A DNA stretch of 64,000 nucleotides, taken from contig NZ_CP065511.1 of NCBI RefSeq assembly GCF_022811925.1, positions 3,651,501 to 3,715,500 on the forward strand, in the 5' to 3' direction. Both the position numbers and the translations under genes were made by a program. Shown here piece after piece: positions 12,697 to 50,636 of this stretch. A model generated the notes under the pieces. It did no database searches, was not told the origin of the DNA, and worked only from the letters and a program-made list of their open reading frames with translations. This DNA is from Cytobacillus oceanisediminis. Its GTDB lineage: Bacteria > Bacillota > Bacilli > Bacillales > Cytobacillaceae. Positions within the stretch are counted from its first letter, which is position 1, and each line of letters opens with the position of its first letter.

Positions 12697-13206
12697 CTAT
12701 TCTGCTGCTGAAAGCTGTTCTTTGGATTTGAGCACCTGGATATAAACTCCTGTCAGTGTTTGAGTCAGCAGAAAGATAGGAAATGAATGAGCGATCCGAT
12801 ACCCTTTCTGCAGCGTAATGATTCCCGCGGCAGTTAACACCCATTGAAAGAAAACTCCTAATAAAGCCCAGACCAAAACATAAATAATGAATGTTTTTTT
12901 CCCGATCTTCATTTTTTCATAAAAGTAAAAAAAGAAGTAGCCAAATGGGGCGAATAATAAATAATAAAGAACATCTGTCACTTCATAATTATTTAAATCG
13001 TTTATCTTATAAAAATCAGTCCTGCCTCCGCCTATTGTGAAATCATATAGAATACCGATGGACATTCCCCAAAGAAGGCTCAAGATTCTGATTTGCTTAG
13101 CCAGCTTATCCGGCCTTCTTATAAGTAAAAAATAAACAAAATAGGCAGCAGCAGTAGTTATTAAGAGAAAGAGCTCATTGCCGCCGAAATTTTCCCATAA
13201 TTTCAT
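12697..13206 (-). CDS. Multi-pass membrane protein, unknown function
   Basis: 169 residues with about five hydrophobic helices (ELFLLITTAAAYFVYFLLI, SLLWGMSIGILYDF, DVLYYLLFAPFGYFFFYFYE, FIIYVLVWALLGVFFQWVL and a last one). The pattern resembles CBO0543-like small integral membrane proteins of spore formers; that link is tentative. Its start overlaps the stop of the upstream gene by 4 bases (ATGA), so the two are translationally coupled and probably work together. Confidence 0.65.
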   Translation of the reverse strand: MKLWENFGGNELFLLITTAAAYFVYFLLIRRPDKLAKQIRILSLLWGMSIGILYDFTIGGGRTDFYKINDLNNYEVTDVLYYLLFAPFGYFFFYFYEKMKIGKKTFIIYVLVWALLGVFFQWVLTAAGIITLQKGYRIAHSFPIFLLTQTLTGVYIQVLKSKEQLSAAE

Positions 13207-13676
13207 GCTTCATTCACCCCTCTTGTTTTAAGCTGCCCAAAATGCTTCAGTAAGTATTGAACCACTAAATGCAGGAGAATTAGATAAATAATCTCATAGC
13301 CGATATTCCACTTTTTATATTCCACAATGTCAAAGTAAAGGGCAATCACCACAGCCACGACAAGGAACAAGACTGACAGGGTGGTTTTAAATAATTTTGA
13401 ACCAAAGGAAGGCGCTGTCCTGAATAAATTCATTGTAATAGCAACCGTGAGCGGAAGAGTTATGCTTCTATGTATTAAGAAAGCGGAATTATCTAAGATC
13501 TGCTGGGAAATCTTCGCCATATTTAATTCTTCATACACAATCCAGGTAAAATTGATATGAATGACTAATGCCACCAAATAGACGAAGGTATTTTCAATAA
13601 ATGTCAGCTTTTTATTCATTGATGTAAACAGCATTAGCACCAGCCAGGCTAAAGAAACTATAAGTACAAATCCCAT
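13203..13676 (-). CDS. Multi-pass membrane protein, first gene of a coupled pair
   Basis: 157 residues with about five hydrophobic helices, starting MGFVLIVSLAWLVLMLFTSM. No catalytic motif or known domain is visible. Length and topology resemble the downstream partner, which it overlaps by four bases. Its upstream side runs directly into a 52-bp repeat array, so its promoter lies in the 70 bases before the array or inside it. The ribosome site is weak. Confidence 0.6.
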   Translation of the reverse strand: MGFVLIVSLAWLVLMLFTSMNKKLTFIENTFVYLVALVIHINFTWIVYEELNMAKISQQILDNSAFLIHRSITLPLTVAITMNLFRTAPSFGSKLFKTTLSVLFLVVAVVIALYFDIVEYKKWNIGYEIIYLILLHLVVQYLLKHFGQLKTRGVNEA

Positions 13677-13783: not shown

Positions 13784-14460
13784 TTCAGTCTGGTTGTTTC
13801 AGAATTCATTTTCTCATATCGGAAGGTGAGCCAAGTTCGGACTCACTACCTCGAATTTCTTACTCTTCCGTCCGAAGGTGCGCCTAGTTCGGACTCATTC
13901 TCTCGGTTTTCTTTCTCTCCTGTCCGAAGGTGAGTCAAGTTCGGACTCACTCCCTCGGATTTCTTTCTCCCCTGTCCGAAGGTGCGCCAGGTTCGGACTC
14001 ACTCTCTCGAATTTCTTCTCCTCCTGTCCGAAGGCGAGCCAGGTTCGGACTCACTCTCTCGAATTTCTTCTCCTCCTGTCCGAAGGCGAGCTAAGTTCGG
14101 ACTCATTCTCTCGGTTTTCTTTCTCTCACGTCCGAAGGCGAGCCAGGTTCGGACTCACTCTCTCGGATTTCTTCTCCTCCAGTCCGAAGGCGAGCCAGGT
14201 TCGGACTCACTCTCTCGAATTTCTTCTCCTCCTGTCCGAAGGCGAGCTAAGTTCGGACTCATTCTCTCGGTTTTCTTTCTCTCCTGTCCGAAGGCGAGCC
14301 AGGTTCGGACTCACTCTCTCGGATTTCTTCTCCTCCTGTCCGAAGGTGAGCCAATTTCGGACTCACTCTCTCGAATTTCTTCTCCTCCTGTCCGAATGTG
14401 CACCGGCTTCTGACTGGTTCCATAGATACTCTCTTTCGCCTGTCCGATTTGTAACCATTC
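13784..14460. repeat. 52-bp tandem repeat array 1 (about 13 units)
   Basis: The word TTCGGACTCA or a close variant recurs at 13836, 13888, 13940, 13992, 14044, 14096, 14148, 14200, 14252, 14304 and 14356, with degenerate copies at 13784 and 14408; each step is exactly 52. Every unit also holds GTCCGAAGG, so GTCCGAA and TTCGGAC can pair across an 11-base loop. The plus strand is pyrimidine-rich. Units at 14044-14199 and 14200-14355 form two almost identical trimers (156 bp). There are no spacers, so it is not a CRISPR. Long ORFs here are an effect of the repeat lacking stops. Confidence 0.95.
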
Positions 14461-14493
14461 TGATTAGTGCCTTCGTTACTCAGAATCAACACA

Positions 14494-14520
14494 ACAAAAA
14501 GAACGGCTGGGATCAGCCGC
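14494..14520 (-). terminator. Terminator of the LacI-family regulator gene
   Basis: CGGCTG and CAGCCG pair across a 4-base loop. The minus strand continues TTCTTTTTG. Confidence 0.75.
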
Positions 14521-14536
14521 TTCAACCATCATTCTG

Positions 14537-15499
14537 CTATACGGTTTGCCGTTCGATCAGCTTCACCGATATCTCCTCATGTGTGTGCTTTTCACCATCA
14601 ATTGCTTGAAGAAGCAGCTGCCGTCCCATTTGAACCAGCGGTATTTCAAGTGTTGTAATGTGCATGATTTTGGCTATTGGCTGGTTATCAAATCCCATGA
14701 TTGCCAGGTCATCCGGAATATGGATGCCTTTTTCCCTGCAGGAGGTTACAATTCCGGCAGCAGCAAAATCACTTGTTACCAGCAAAGCTGTCGGTGGATT
14801 ATCCATGTTCGATAACCGGCGAACCACTTCTTCGCCATGCTCAAAATTCAGACACTCATAAAAGATATATTCTTCATAATACGGTTCGCCAATTCGTTTT
14901 AAAAAATCTGCATAAGCCTTTCCGCGCTGCCTGCTGTTGGCACCCGTCTTTCTTCCAATACAATACCCGATTTTCTGATGCCCTTTATTATGTAAGTACT
15001 CTAAAGCATTAGAGAAACTCAAGTAATGGTCGATAAAGGTAGAGGACACATTTTGATTCCTCGCATCTTCACAGAGAACAATGGGGCCATACTCCGTAAA
15101 CTGATTGATGACATCCCATTCGCATATTCTTGAACAAATGATTAAAGAGTCGATTTGTTTATGCTGCAGCATTTTTAGAGCTTCAATCTCCCTGTCTTCC
15201 TCGTAATTTGTTTGAAAAAGAACTAATTTATAGTTGTTTTTCATGGCCTCATTTGCAATCCCTTCTACAAGCAGGCCGAAATAAGGGTGATTGGTAAAAG
15301 GAACCACGACCCCTATAAGAAGTGTTTCCCCTTTGCTTAAATGAACAGCATTGATATTCCGCTGATAATTGAATTCCTCCATTGCCCGCAAGACAGCTTC
15401 CCTTTTATCCTCACTCACATAAGGATGATTATTCAGCACTCTGGAAACGGTCGTAACTGAAACTCCTGCCTTTTTAGCGATGTCTTTTATATTTGCCAT
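14537..15499 (-). CDS. LacI-family transcriptional regulator
   Basis: 320 residues. An N-terminal LacI HTH (NIKDIAKKAGVSVTTVSRVL) with hinge helix is followed by a periplasmic-binding-protein-like effector domain (~60-315), typical for the family. It binds a palindromic operator and releases it on sugar or other effector binding. No transport or catabolic operon adjoins it; the only divergent neighbour is a 58-residue membrane ORF. The target is therefore unknown and possibly distant. ATG at 15499. Confidence 0.88.
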   Translation of the reverse strand: MANIKDIAKKAGVSVTTVSRVLNNHPYVSEDKREAVLRAMEEFNYQRNINAVHLSKGETLLIGVVVPFTNHPYFGLLVEGIANEAMKNNYKLVLFQTNYEEDREIEALKMLQHKQIDSLIICSRICEWDVINQFTEYGPIVLCEDARNQNVSSTFIDHYLSFSNALEYLHNKGHQKIGYCIGRKTGANSRQRGKAYADFLKRIGEPYYEEYIFYECLNFEHGEEVVRRLSNMDNPPTALLVTSDFAAAGIVTSCREKGIHIPDDLAIMGFDNQPIAKIMHITTLEIPLVQMGRQLLLQAIDGEKHTHEEISVKLIERQTV

Positions 15500-23751: not shown

Positions 23752-23823
23752 GTAATTATTTTATAAAAAGTGATTTAATTATTTCCGGTTTATGACTATA
23801 ATAAGAAACAAGGAGTGATTATT

Positions 23824-24129
23824 ATGGAAAAGTCGCTAATTTGTCCAAGATTTGAAAAAGCCATTGGCATATTGAGCCAGCGCTGGACCGGATTGATCAT
23901 TTATCAATTGCTTAACGGGCCACAGCGGTTCTGCAGTATAGAATCCTCTATCGGGATAAGCGGCAAAGTTCTTTCAGACCGGTTAAAGGACCTGGAGAAT
24001 GAAGGGGTCGTAAAACGCGAAGTTTACCCTGAGACTCCTGTAAGAATCGAATATTCCCTGACAGAAAAAGGCCTGGCCATGGAGCCGCTAATGAAAGAAA
24101 TCGAAAAATGGTCGCAGAACTGGTTATAG
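23824..24129 (+). CDS. catR: HxlR/DUF24-type MarR regulator, redox-sensing (CatR/YodB-like)
   Basis: 101 residues. ATG 23824 has AAGGAG upstream; the GTG at 23815 lies too close to it. A winged-helix HxlR domain (QRWTGLIIYQLLNGPQRFCS, ISGKVLSDRLKDLENEGVV). The single N-terminal Cys7 (MEKSLICPRFEKA) corresponds to the cysteine that CatR and YodB use to sense diamide and quinones by alkylation or disulfide formation. Divergent from catDE with the operator between, so it probably represses catDE until oxidised. CatR is preferred over YodB by context. Confidence 0.86.
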   Translation: MEKSLICPRFEKAIGILSQRWTGLIIYQLLNGPQRFCSIESSIGISGKVLSDRLKDLENEGVVKREVYPETPVRIEYSLTEKGLAMEPLMKEIEKWSQNWL

Positions 24130-24152
24130 GCTTAATTTATATATGAATATCA

Positions 24153-24187
24153 AAAAAGAGTCTTCCCTATTTGGAAGACTCTTTTTT
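24153..24187. terminator. Bidirectional terminator after catR
   Basis: AAAAAGAGTCTTCC pairs with GGAAGACTCTTTTT over a 6-base loop, with A and T runs on both sides. Confidence 0.9.
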
Positions 24188-24235
24188 GCGTTATCTCTTT
24201 GATCGTGTTTATTCCTATTTTGACTGGGGAGCGAG

Positions 24236-24830
24236 TTCGGACTCATTTTTTCTGATTCTTGAATCTTCTGTCCGAAGGTGCCTCGACTTCGGACTCAATT
24301 CCTCGGATTTATCCTTACCCTGTCCGAAGGTGGTCTGTGTTCGGACTCATTCTCTCGGAATCTTGCTTCTTCTGTCCGAAGGTGCCTCGACTTCGGACTC
24401 AGTTCCTCGGATTTATCCTTACCCTGTCCGAAGGTGGGCCGTGTTCGGACTCATTCCCTCGAAATCTTGCTTCTTCTGTCCAAAGGTGCTCCGACTTCGG
24501 ACTCAATTCCTCGGATTTATCCCTACCCTGTCCGAAGGTGGGCCGTGTTCGGACTCATTCTCTCAGAACTTGCTTCTTCTGTCCGAAGGTGCCCCGACTT
24601 CGGACTCAATTCCTCGGATTTATCCTTACCCTGTCCGAAGGTGGGCCGTGTTCGGACTCATTCTCTCAGAATCTTGCTTCTTCTGTCCGAAGGTGCCCCG
24701 ACTTCGGACTCAATTCCTCGGATTTATCCTTACCCTGTCCGAAGATGGTCCTTGTTCGGACTCATTCTCTCGGATTCTTACTCAGCTTGTCCAAGGGCGC
24801 TCCCGGATTCGTCCTTCTCATGTCCAAATA
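24236..24830. repeat. 52-bp tandem repeat array 2 (11 units, two alternating types)
   Basis: TTCGGACTCA recurs at 24236, 24288, 24340, 24392, 24444, 24496, 24548, 24599, 24651, 24703 and 24755; steps are 52 apart from one 51. Units alternate between a type continuing ATTCCTCGGATTTATCC and a type continuing TTCTCTCGGAATCTTGC, so the higher-order period is 104 bp. The core GTCCGAAGGTG...TTCGGACTCA is shared with array 1. The ends decay (24781-24830). It lies between two convergent genes. All three forward frames stay open, but none has a start with a ribosome site. Confidence 0.95.
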
Positions 24831-24844
24831 AGGAAATAGCCAAT

Positions 24845-25714
24845 TTACTTTCCTTTTATCTCTGAAATATACTGTTTTACAACTTCATACACATAATCCT
24901 GGTTGGCGGCCGCAGTGTTGGGATCGTATTGGCCTCCGTTTGTTTTGTTATTAGAAAGAATACGAATTCCCAGGAATGGAACATCGTATGCTCCGGCAAT
25001 CTGCGCTGCTGCGGCGCCTTCCATTTCTTCTACTGATGTTCCGTAGTTTTCATGAAACCATCGGATGCGGTCAACTTCGTTATTCCATAGGTCCGCTGAA
25101 CCGATTGTCCCCTCGACTACTTTGCCTTTCTTGTGCTTATCTTTTACTGCTTTGGCAGCAGCAAGAAGATTTTCATCTCCCTTATAATAACGAATCTTTT
25201 CTGCATCAGGGTCTTCACCGGCACTTCCCTCAGAAGCCATCAGGTCCATTGGAATCCAATTCGTTGGTTCAATCCCTTCCCCTTCTTCCAAATGACCAGT
25301 CTTCAATGATCCGATATTAACTGTTCTTTCTCCTAAAACGATATCATACACATTCAAGCTCGGATCATGGCCGCCTGAAGTCCCCTGATTGATGATGGCG
25401 GCTGGATCATACTTTTCAATAGCGATTGCTGTGGCAGCCGCTGTATTTTCCATGCCTTTTCCGGTTTTAGCAACAATAACTGGGTACTTGTCCAGCTTTC
25501 CTTTATAAAAAACAAAGTTCCCTGATTTTTCAACTTTAACTTTATCTAATCGTTCAGCAAACTTTTCGGCCTCGATTGGCATTGGCCCTTGGATAAGAAT
25601 TGGCTTTTGGGCACCTTCAGCCTCTGTTTCTAATTTTGTGGCCGAAGAGCATCCTGCAAGCATCGCTGCAGACAGTGCTGCAATCGCAGCGAGTGAAGCT
25701 AATTTCTTTTTCAT
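24845..25714 (-). CDS. Exported nucleosidase/nucleoside phosphorylase-fold lipoprotein (MTA/SAH nucleosidase-like)
   Basis: 289 residues from ATG 25714, which follows GGGGAG; the frame extends 17 codons upstream without a ribosome site. Lipoprotein signal peptide with lipobox LAGC (Cys22). The PNP/UDP fold is visible as NQGTSGGHDPSLNVYDIVLG and the nucleoside-binding VEEMEGAAAAQIA; Asn replaces the usual catalytic Asp region in ILSNNKTNGG. Acting outside the membrane, it would release purine base from nucleosides for uptake. It is controlled by an upstream guanine riboswitch, which argues for purine salvage rather than methionine recycling. The exact substrate is unproven. Confidence 0.85.
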   Translation of the reverse strand: MKKKLASLAAIAALSAAMLAGCSSATKLETEAEGAQKPILIQGPMPIEAEKFAERLDKVKVEKSGNFVFYKGKLDKYPVIVAKTGKGMENTAAATAIAIEKYDPAAIINQGTSGGHDPSLNVYDIVLGERTVNIGSLKTGHLEEGEGIEPTNWIPMDLMASEGSAGEDPDAEKIRYYKGDENLLAAAKAVKDKHKKGKVVEGTIGSADLWNNEVDRIRWFHENYGTSVEEMEGAAAAQIAGAYDVPFLGIRILSNNKTNGGQYDPNTAAANQDYVYEVVKQYISEIKGK

Positions 25715-25767
25715 TGTACGTTCTCCCCTTTTCTTGTTGTCTAATACACCCGAAGTTCTGATCATAG

Positions 25768-25809: not shown

Positions 25810-25857
25810 ATAGAGTTAAAGCAGCTGCAATAAACTTGCAGTTATTCCTATACTTTA

Positions 25858-25928
25858 ACCCGTAGTCCGGTTCTTTCATTGGGAACCAGGTAGAAACACT
25901 CAGACCATATTACCGAGCATATACGAGT
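25858..25928 (-). promoter_or_regulatory. Guanine-class purine riboswitch aptamer
   Basis: Reading the minus strand: P1 ACTCGTA/TACGGGT; P2 CTCGG/CTGAG; the J2/3 core TTTCTACC; P3 GGTTC/GAACC; then GGACTACG. The pyrimidine that pairs with the ligand (position 74 of the xpt numbering) is C, the guanine/hypoxanthine type. It precedes the exported nucleosidase. Confidence 0.93.
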
Positions 25929-25954
25929 GATGAAATTAGTAAGATTACAATGCC

Positions 25955-31141: not shown

Positions 31142-31178
31142 AAAACAGAAAGAGGCAAGGGTAGAATCCCTTACCTCT
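31142..31178 (-). terminator. ZTP riboswitch terminator in the serA leader
   Basis: On the minus strand AGAGGTAAGGG pairs with CCCTTGCCTCT (one wobble), then TTCTGTTTT. The stem begins at the end of the aptamer. Confidence 0.85.
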
Positions 31179-31248
31179 GCCCAGGCGAACGGCTTCGACA
31201 CTATGTGCTCCCTCGCGGTGATCCGCGTCTCGCCAGTTACACATAGCC
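31178..31248 (-). promoter_or_regulatory. ZTP (pfl motif) riboswitch aptamer upstream of serA
   Basis: Minus strand: P1 CTATGTG/CACATAG, the conserved AACTGGCG, hairpin CGCGG-ATCA-CCGCG, then GGGAGC, and the pseudoknot end CGCCTGGGCA. These are hallmark elements of the pfl/ZTP motif, which senses the purine intermediate AICAR phosphate derivatives ZMP/ZTP and turns genes on when 10-formyl-THF is short. Confidence 0.92.
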
Positions 31249-31263
31249 TTTTCGGTTTTTTAA

Positions 31264-45451: not shown

Positions 45452-45469
45452 CCAATGGTTTCCATCAAC

Positions 45470-45600
45470 CCTTCTCTCGATTCGGCTTACGGAGTTAGCT
45501 GTCGGATTAGGGATTGAGAGTATCCCTTCTTAGCTTTAATATGCTAAGATTCACCCCAAGATAAACAAGGTTTATCAAAATTGGTTCCCCCGCTCTTAAT
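45470..45600 (-). promoter_or_regulatory. c-di-AMP riboswitch (ydaO-yuaA motif) upstream of ktrA
   Basis: Minus strand blocks in the correct order: GCGGGGGAACCAA, GGGGTGAATCTT, AGGGATACTCTCAATCCC, CCGACAGCTAACTCCGTAAG and GAGAGAAGG. These are the invariant parts of the ydaO motif, which terminates transcription when c-di-AMP is high. Confidence 0.96.
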
Positions 45601-45691
45601 GATTCAGCAAAAAGGTTTACTATGAAATTAATAAATATAAATTACTCCCATGGTAATCTCTTGTCAATCTTTTTTTACATAGCAGGTAAAA

Positions 45692-50353: not shown

Positions 50354-50497
50354 CCTTATTGCTCAAAAATCAAATTGACCTTTCCTATTAAATTACTATT
50401 TTAATTATAGTAATCATAGATAAGAAAATCGTATGATTTACAACTTTTATGATTATTATTAATATATTAAAAAAACATTTATAATTTTTCGCTTAAT

Positions 50498-50622
50498 CTT
50501 AATTGAGCGGGGGAACCAACTGTACTTTTTTAATAAAAGTACCTGGGGTGAATCCTTTTACAGGTAGGGTACTCTCAAGACCCGAACCCGACAGCTAACC
50601 TCGTAAGCGTGTTGAGAGGGAA
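50498..50622 (+). promoter_or_regulatory. Second c-di-AMP riboswitch (ydaO-yuaA motif)
   Basis: Blocks in order: GAGCGGGGGAACCAAC, GGGGTGAATCC, AGGGTACTCTCAAGACCC, CCGACAGCTAACCTCGTAAG and TTGAGAGGG. It precedes a dicarboxylate/amino acid symporter and is a separate copy from the one at ktrA. Confidence 0.95.
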
Positions 50623-50636
50623 ACACTGCAAAAATG

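Follow-up and report, generated by a model that had tools for sequence, protein, structure and literature searches.

Two arrays of 52-bp tandem repeats were identified in a 64,000-nucleotide stretch of the Cytobacillus oceanisediminis chromosome (NZ_CP065511.1, positions 3,651,501 to 3,715,500), which is called the window here. The arrays and the genes and hairpins beside them are as follows.

13203..13676, minus strand: small membrane-protein-like gene on one flank of array 1 (named from sequence character only)
13784..13835, plus strand: degenerate edge unit of array 1, in register (4 of 10 core positions mismatched)
13836..14396, plus strand: array 1, 11 exact 52-bp units (TTCGGACTCA ... 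GTCCGAA), from the sequence and TRF
14044..14355, plus strand: two tandem 156-bp trimer blocks (14044-14199 and 14200-14355) differing at 6 of 156 positions
14397..14460, plus strand: degenerate edge unit or units of array 1, in register (3 of 10 core positions mismatched at 14408)
14502..14521, minus strand: terminator-like hairpin and T run of the lacI-type gene, between this gene and array 1
14537..15499, minus strand: lacI-type regulator gene on the other flank of array 1 (typed from the first-pass annotation and sequence character), the anchor for orthologous sites of array 1
23815..24129, plus strand: open frame flanking array 2, probably an hxlR-type regulator gene judging from its sequence
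24152..24187, plus strand: terminator-like hairpin (AAAAAAGAGTCTTCC ... GGAAGACTCTTTTTT), from the sequence, between the hxlR-type gene and array 2
24236..24779, plus strand: array 2, 11 exact TTCGGAC in 52-bp steps (one step is 51), grown by 104-bp dimers, from TRF and the sequence
24845..25765, minus strand: open frame flanking array 2, presumably a nucleosidase-like gene (judging from its sequence), the anchor for orthologous sites of array 2

The hairpin finder returned one hairpin in the region of 14502..14521, where 1.5 were expected in shuffles, and the hairpin at 24152..24187 was missed by the strict terminator finder and recognised from the sequence. Open frames traverse both arrays (13878-14609, plus strand, 243 aa; 24171-24839, plus strand, 222 aa) and are very likely spurious. 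Six database proteins resemble the frame at 13878-14609, so that array DNA is probably being annotated as protein. Riboswitches above the Rfam gathering score were also detected in the window, namely two c-di-AMP, a purine and a ZMP/ZTP riboswitch (50480-50625 on the plus strand; 45469-45619, 25843-25946 and 31172-31250 on the minus strand).

The sequence TTCGGACTCA is present exactly at 11 positions of array 1, from 13836 to 14356, at a constant step of 52 bp, and the layout of an exact unit is TTCGGAC-N27-GTCCGAA-N11. The first-pass annotation had listed 13 core positions at this step; the step is indeed exact, but 11 of the cores are, those at 13784 and 14408 being degenerate. TRF reports 13822-14396 with a period of 52 (11.1 copies) and with a period of 156 (3.7 copies). 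Units three apart are the most similar (identity 0.894), compared with 0.862, 0.857 and 0.848 for units one, four and two apart, respectively. Together with the 6 differences between the two trimer blocks, this bears out the earlier claim of trimer growth, and array 1 as the product of a recent trimer duplication is supported. The GTCCGAA and TTCGGAC inverted repeats described before are present as 11 copies of each, and AGGAGGAG, said to lie on the minus strand of every unit, was found in only 5 of 13. The window contains 46 copies of TTCGGAC, both arrays included, compared with 4.5 expected in shuffles. Array 2, which is absent from the first-pass annotation, lies about 10 kb from array 1 and has the same core.

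A search of the genome and its relatives for the core at 52-base spacing had been suggested. It yields about 20 dispersed arrays in the 5.58-Mb source genome (G000) and the pattern in relatives. The palindrome GTCCGAA-N8..14-TTCGGAC occurs 122 times in G000, whereas the reversed pattern occurs twice. Within 20 fetched array regions (L213-L232) lie 120 of the 122 palindromes, so the core is not spread aperiodically through the genome, the outcome that had been named as fatal to the array concept. The three-half-site pattern GTCCGAA-N11-TTCGGAC-N27-GTCCGAA was detected in 16 of 36 genomes of the genus (and is absent in 20) and in 86 of 193 genomes and 14 of 25 genera of the family. In the order sample it is present in 28 of 397 genomes, 16 of which lie outside the family, in six other families. 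The two carriers among 398 genomes of the phylum sample are G000, which the family, order and phylum samples all include, and one more member of the family. The reversed-pattern control gave 0 in every row shown. Record titles among the matches listed include Cytobacillus, Neobacillus, Mesobacillus, Robertmurraya, Peribacillus, Evansella, Aquibacillus, Texcoconibacillus, Calidifontibacillus, Natronobacillus, Pullulanibacillus and Ammoniphilus. Records titled Chryseobacterium sp. ISL-80 (L188, L194) also carry arrays, and very likely represent a mislabelled Bacillaceae genome. The core pattern gave 0 matches in viral contigs, and array 1 gave no blastn match in plasmid and phage collections, a search that would miss arrays having other spacers; spread via phages or plasmids was rejected on these two results.

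Tandem repeats of 52 nt are a printed and unexplained class in Bacillus (Subirana & Messeguer 2021, PMC8161180). In the parts of that paper used here, the class has a constant unit of 51-53 nt, at least four repeats, several families per genome and a non-coding nature; no sequence conservation and species-specific signals are reported, the 52-nt arrays of B. coagulans are reported as transcribed, and a protein polymerising on DNA, or small RNAs, had already been proposed. Array 1 is a member of this published class. The arrays described here match it in period, host group, non-coding nature and species-variable sequence; unit length and repeat number agree, and the roughly 20 arrays have different spacers and are intergenic where placed. 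The printed oceanisediminis family 79_52_5 carries both halves of this core, and the printed alkalitelluris family 71_52_7 contains TTCGGAC with GTCTGAA (PMC8161180). The earlier statement that no described family has this core is thus incorrect. The absence of sequence conserved between species, which is a description in PMC8161180 rather than a criterion, does not extend to the present core, found in 14 of 25 genera and in six other families. Beyond the parts of PMC8161180 used here, the arrays have a core dyad common to many genera, fixed N11 and N27, an average phasing of 10.4 bp, persistence at orthologous sites and a placement next to terminators.

The core is a rigid dyad, GTCCGAA-N11-TTCGGAC-N27. 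Its geometry was determined in 80 of 116 named loci and in the 20 regions of the source genome, which together supplied 99 arrays; two of the 20 regions (L214, L216) hold no array with at least four exact half-sites. TTCGGAC starts 18 bases after GTCCGAA in 512 of 517 consecutive pairs from the 80 named loci and in 119 of 122 pairs from the 20 own loci. For the other gap, the value is 34 in 491 of 530 cases from the named and 128 of 132 from the own loci; among the 530, it is 33 in 15 cases and 35 in 10 cases. As the former distance is near-constant and the latter has variants of 33 and 35, N11 is rigid and N27 tolerates one base. Several N11 spacers of G020 (L267) have a length of 10, compared with 11 in its close relative G019 (L268), which may be due to assembly indels rather than biology.

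Both halves are exact in 624 of the 887 units. Neighbouring units (725 pairs) differ at a rate of 0.04-0.12 per core position compared with mostly 0.12-0.34 in the spacers, a contrast in which core conservation is partly by construction because the arrays were found through the core. The exception among the spacer positions is one A/T base adjoining the core, with a rate of 0.08. An A/T base lies directly outside the half-site on both sides in 97 of the 99 array consensuses, and the two bases immediately inside the dyad are coupled (T..A in 41 of 99, G or C with G or C in 50 of 99; z 9.4). Half-site mutants comprise 132 with a single changed half and five with both changed. C>T or G>A changes at the central CpG of CCGAA/TTCGG account for 72 of the 132 single-half mutants (L097-L176, L213-L232), compared with 14 at other core C/G positions listed among the top 20 classes; the excess reflects either tolerated letters or a deamination hot spot. 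The spacers recur within arrays, with a mean identity of 0.75-0.78 at lags 1-6, and a CRISPR array was rejected because they are not unique.

The 7-bp inverted repeats, and the reported transcription of the B. coagulans 52-nt arrays (PMC8161180, in the parts used here), would suit transcripts of the repeats that function through their hairpins as small RNAs or protein sponges, as Subirana & Messeguer proposed, and 62 of the 132 single-half mutants retain a G-U pair on the strand read. However, none of the five double mutants is compensatory, and the one 215-nt stretch folded is no more stable than its shuffles, whichever strand is taken (z 0.57 and 0.92). An RNA does not need a loop of fixed length but free sequence, and a terminator-like hairpin lies ahead of the array at 34 of 85 gene ends. 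The best Rfam hit scored 19.2 bits, below its cut-off of 81, and nothing exceeded the threshold. We consider this reading quite improbable. A structured RNA family was rejected in view of the lack of an Rfam match above threshold, of a covarying stem and of excess folding of the 215-nt stretch.

A 27-bp dyad with rigid inner spacing resembles the core site of a recombinase. Tyrosine-type recombinase sites consist of inverted arms around a short overlap, and units gained or lost site-specifically at such sites would explain copy changes in whole units. Homogenisation should then be strongest in the overlap, but N11 (0.229) and N27 (0.221) differ about equally between neighbouring units (725 pairs), and the A/T phasing across N27, described below, is left unexplained, which makes recombinase sites a very improbable explanation.

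BIME/REP elements, palindromes to which gyrase binds or which a REP-associated transposase mobilises, are similar to the present arrays in having regularly spaced alternating palindromes, an extragenic position and a high copy number (PMC2817692, in the part used here). The inverted motifs of the arrays alternate with a short and a long linker, and the 122 palindromes of G000 would fit such an element, as would the link of BIMEs to chromosome organisation described in the same source. In the arrays, however, the linker length is fixed rather than variable and complementary mutations number 0. PF01797 (Y1 transposase) gave 0 matches in G000, G007, G014, G020, G032, G034, G085 and G089, although the last seven of these genomes hold 24 to 156 pattern matches. 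A BIME/REP element with a RAYT-type gene was ruled out on the 0 PF01797 matches in G000, and we regard a BIME/REP-like element in general as highly unlikely.

Two other known systems share single features with the arrays. The parS/sopC centromere of the F plasmid is likewise composed of tandem repeats (twelve of 43 bp) with inverted repeats bound by ParB (PMC6238139, PMC9178275, as given in the parts used here). It is, however, one plasmid locus downstream of the par genes, whereas about 20 arrays are dispersed on the chromosome here; an inverted repeat in each tandem unit is common to both, a single locus next to parAB is not, and no par-type gene was found beside the arrays among the 25 largest neighbour clusters. 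The PurBoxes of Bacillus PurR also contain CGAA with an inverted TTCG. They are 14-bp boxes with a spacer of 16-17 bp, which by our reckoning puts CGAA and TTCG about 30-31 apart, compared with 15 and 37 in the arrays (PMC8789054, in the part used here), and a pair of PurBoxes was rejected on this spacing.

The mean A/T profile of the unit about the dyad has its largest component at harmonic 5, which corresponds to 10.4 bp (z 13 against within-spacer shuffles, a value that, like the other z values, is inflated by the shared ancestry of the arrays). The A/T content thus forms five patches per 52-bp unit on the array average. When the core is masked, harmonic 5 is still the strongest (z 19), and others rise too, up to z 9.8 for harmonic 7, because only parts of the unit are then visible. 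Averaged over the 99 arrays, power reaches 0.73 for harmonic 5, followed by 0.41 for harmonic 9. Of all 26 harmonics, the fifth ranks first in 27 of the 99 arrays and within the top three in 58. All 17 own arrays agree in the sign of its phase, as do 112 of 117 named arrays and 38 of 40 others (L056-L096, which include some genomes of the own and named sets), compared with 158 of 312 control windows; by this measure, harmonics 6 and 7 are as large as harmonic 5 in the own arrays. A/T patches in helical step are a feature of bent or wrapped DNA. The first-pass annotation had pointed out that 52 bp is close to five helical turns, and an A/T peak per 10.4 bp agrees with this as a family average, but array 1 alone has a weak harmonic 5 (rank 19 of 26). 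In array 2 alone, harmonic 5 ranks fifth.

The arrays occupy particular gaps between genes. Gene calls were simple longest open frames, and 74 gaps with arrays could be assigned, 25 arrays being left unplaced at locus ends or beside doubtful small open frames. On this basis, convergent gaps make up 24 of 74 array gaps compared with 43 of 301 other gaps (p 0.0006), and divergent gaps 7 of 74 compared with 68 of 301 (p 0.01). The 34 of 85 array-facing gene ends that have a terminator-like hairpin between gene and array, compared with 1.2 expected in shuffles, include that of the lacI-type gene of the window. No fitting gene family recurs beside the arrays in the 25 largest clusters of open frames that flank them; the cluster found at the most loci (12) is presumably transporter-like, judging from its sequence character.

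Seventeen genomes have a close lacI orthologue (79-100% identity), and in 14 of them an array lies downstream of this gene. Of the remaining genomes, G016 and G022 have a short gap and no three-half-site pattern genome-wide, and from the site in G009 both the array and the neighbouring gene are missing. Of 19 nucleosidase orthologues (43-100% identity), 13 have two or more half-sites of array 2 beside them. Copy number and spacers vary from species to species at orthologous sites, and GTCAGAA has replaced one half-site of the lacI array in one clade of Cytobacillus, where the period is unchanged.

In G000, the arrays cluster toward the origin and terminus (second harmonic p 0.005), with the same result when the origin is placed by dnaA. 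Among the positions listed, those of G007, also a Cytobacillus genome, have a similar trend (second harmonic p 0.007); in Neobacillus sp. PS3-12 (G577) arrays lie around the origin (first harmonic p 0.0006), and the positions listed for Bacillus sp. FJAT-27251 (G574) have no trend (p 0.33 and 0.86). Because of the last result, chromosome position is not used as an argument here. The purine run of the spacers largely follows the replication arm (p 0.004), the arms being assigned via dnaA and flank skew. In the own arrays (L213-L232), the purine-rich N27 strand has values of 0.48-0.80 in five arrays of the right arm and below 0.5 in 10 of 13 others.

Array 1 may represent a phased binding row for a putative dimeric DNA-binding protein that likely coats or wraps DNA, a reading of its anatomy to which we assign a probability of about 0.48. 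The rigid spacing with free letters, the base-specific half-sites, the dyad, the helical period common to unrelated units and the scant evidence of RNA pairing suggest a dimer that reads double-stranded DNA. Such a protein would bind cooperatively along the row of 52-bp units and would likely coat or wrap the DNA in five-turn (52-bp) steps. Binding would shape the nucleoid locally instead of controlling a single neighbouring promoter, and the position of the arrays beyond genes argues against a promoter operator. Copy number would shift in whole units by unequal exchange or slippage, and units out of phase would be lost. The Bacillus proteins LrpC and RemA, for which binding or wrapping of DNA by oligomers has been proposed, in the case of RemA at repetitive regions (PMC8481266, in the part used here), give a picture of what a partner could look like and have no known link to this dyad.

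The main rival is a selfish or neutral satellite that changes by slippage and unequal exchange and spreads between genes, its core and period being kept as an aid to amplification or to the pausing of forks and bringing the host no benefit. Fast turnover of copy number and spacers, freshly duplicated trimers and dimers with degenerate edges (arrays 1 and 2), different spacers in dispersed arrays and a location where insertion does least harm are all expected of such an element. It is the weak phasing of array 1 and the patchy distribution (86 of 193 family genomes) that keep a plain satellite in this place. Slippage alone, however, selects neither a 10.4-bp A/T period averaged over unrelated units nor a rigid N11 with freely changing letters, and persistence at the two orthologous sites (14 of 17 genomes for array 1, 13 of 19 for array 2), 0 core patterns in viral contigs and the lack of a blastn match for array 1 in phage and plasmid collections also speak against it. 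We regard the satellite as possible, though doubtful. Of the three functions offered in the first-pass annotation, the protein-binding platform ranks best and structural RNA is disfavoured; slippage alters copy number but leaves the constraint on core and spacing unexplained. For the two proposals of Subirana & Messeguer, the anatomy as read from sequence favours a protein polymerising on DNA over small RNAs.

Phasing is also present in 52-nt units with other cores. In 22 such units (16 from Table 1 of PMC8161180 and six detected by TRF in fetched loci), only harmonic 5 is raised among harmonics 1 to 10 (power 0.694 compared with 0.245, z 9.3), and it is the largest of 26 in seven of the 22. 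Harmonic 5 is again the most raised in 22 fresh rows (power 0.548, z 5.8), where harmonics 9 and 10 rise less (z 2.5 and 3.2). These rows come from stretches of five genomes, including G010 and G033, which lack the pattern of this core, and they contain one array twice and many from one family of G495. Random windows of the loci of the first 22 units have a power of 0.256, and 20,000 draws of 22 windows reach at most 0.508, compared with 0.694 and 0.548. Units without phasing are cellulosilyticus_61, alkalitelluris_72 and indicus_7 among the 22 other-core units and L299, L313, L315 and L365:10117 among the fresh rows. The printed alkalitelluris unit with this core has a weaker phasing, largest at harmonic 9. 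Since G010 and G033 contain five arrays of 52 nt in 400 kb, absence of the core is not absence of 52-nt arrays.

The combination GTC-N19-GAC, which was noticed by eye before all cells were ranked, is the top of 2,816 three-base/spacing cells and occurs in seven of 31 other-core units (two of them alike), whereas shuffles gave at most four in any cell. L099, a unit of the other-core sets, may be a decayed copy of the present core. Six of the seven units with GTC-N19-GAC are 52 nt long; they have the same A/T phase sign as the arrays with the present core, and in five of the six, harmonic 5 exceeds the others among the first ten. GTC-N19-GAC is found in three of the 22 fresh rows, where it is not the top cell. 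A significant dyad was detected in 16 of the 22 fresh rows and is base-centred in 14 of these, as it is in all nine other-core units chosen as significant. Dyad spans vary, from about 19 to 37 in the fresh rows, and only the base-centring stays common.

All bacillar 52-bp satellites could belong to one system, in which fast-changing dimeric wrapping proteins would act in five-turn steps on base-centred dyads (often GTC-N19-GAC) in DNA pre-phased for bending at 10.4 bp per turn. We consider this generalisation unlikely as it stands. If true, the constant 52 would be the step of a protein-DNA fibre, and the arrays would correspond to nucleosome arrays, in a bacterial form programmed by sequence. 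It is a puzzle in print that repeats of many bacilli stay at exactly 52 bases while the letters change, and phasing offers a testable answer, since 52 is five turns at 10.4 bp and an A/T patch per turn is, on average, common to the 52-nt units with unrelated cores analysed here. Array 1 is a member of the printed class and hence not a new kind of element; its value is that it makes the constant 52 testable. A list of satellites would thereby become a search for a protein and possibly for a new kind of bacterial chromatin.

Other unit lengths were observed in G071. A 3.6-kb array (L298:10163-13782) consists of 34.8 copies of a 104-bp unit with only six exact core half-sites. The stretches L286-L305 of the same genome contain many arrays of 20-21 and 40-42 nt beside those of 52 nt, which correspond to two and four helical turns, respectively.
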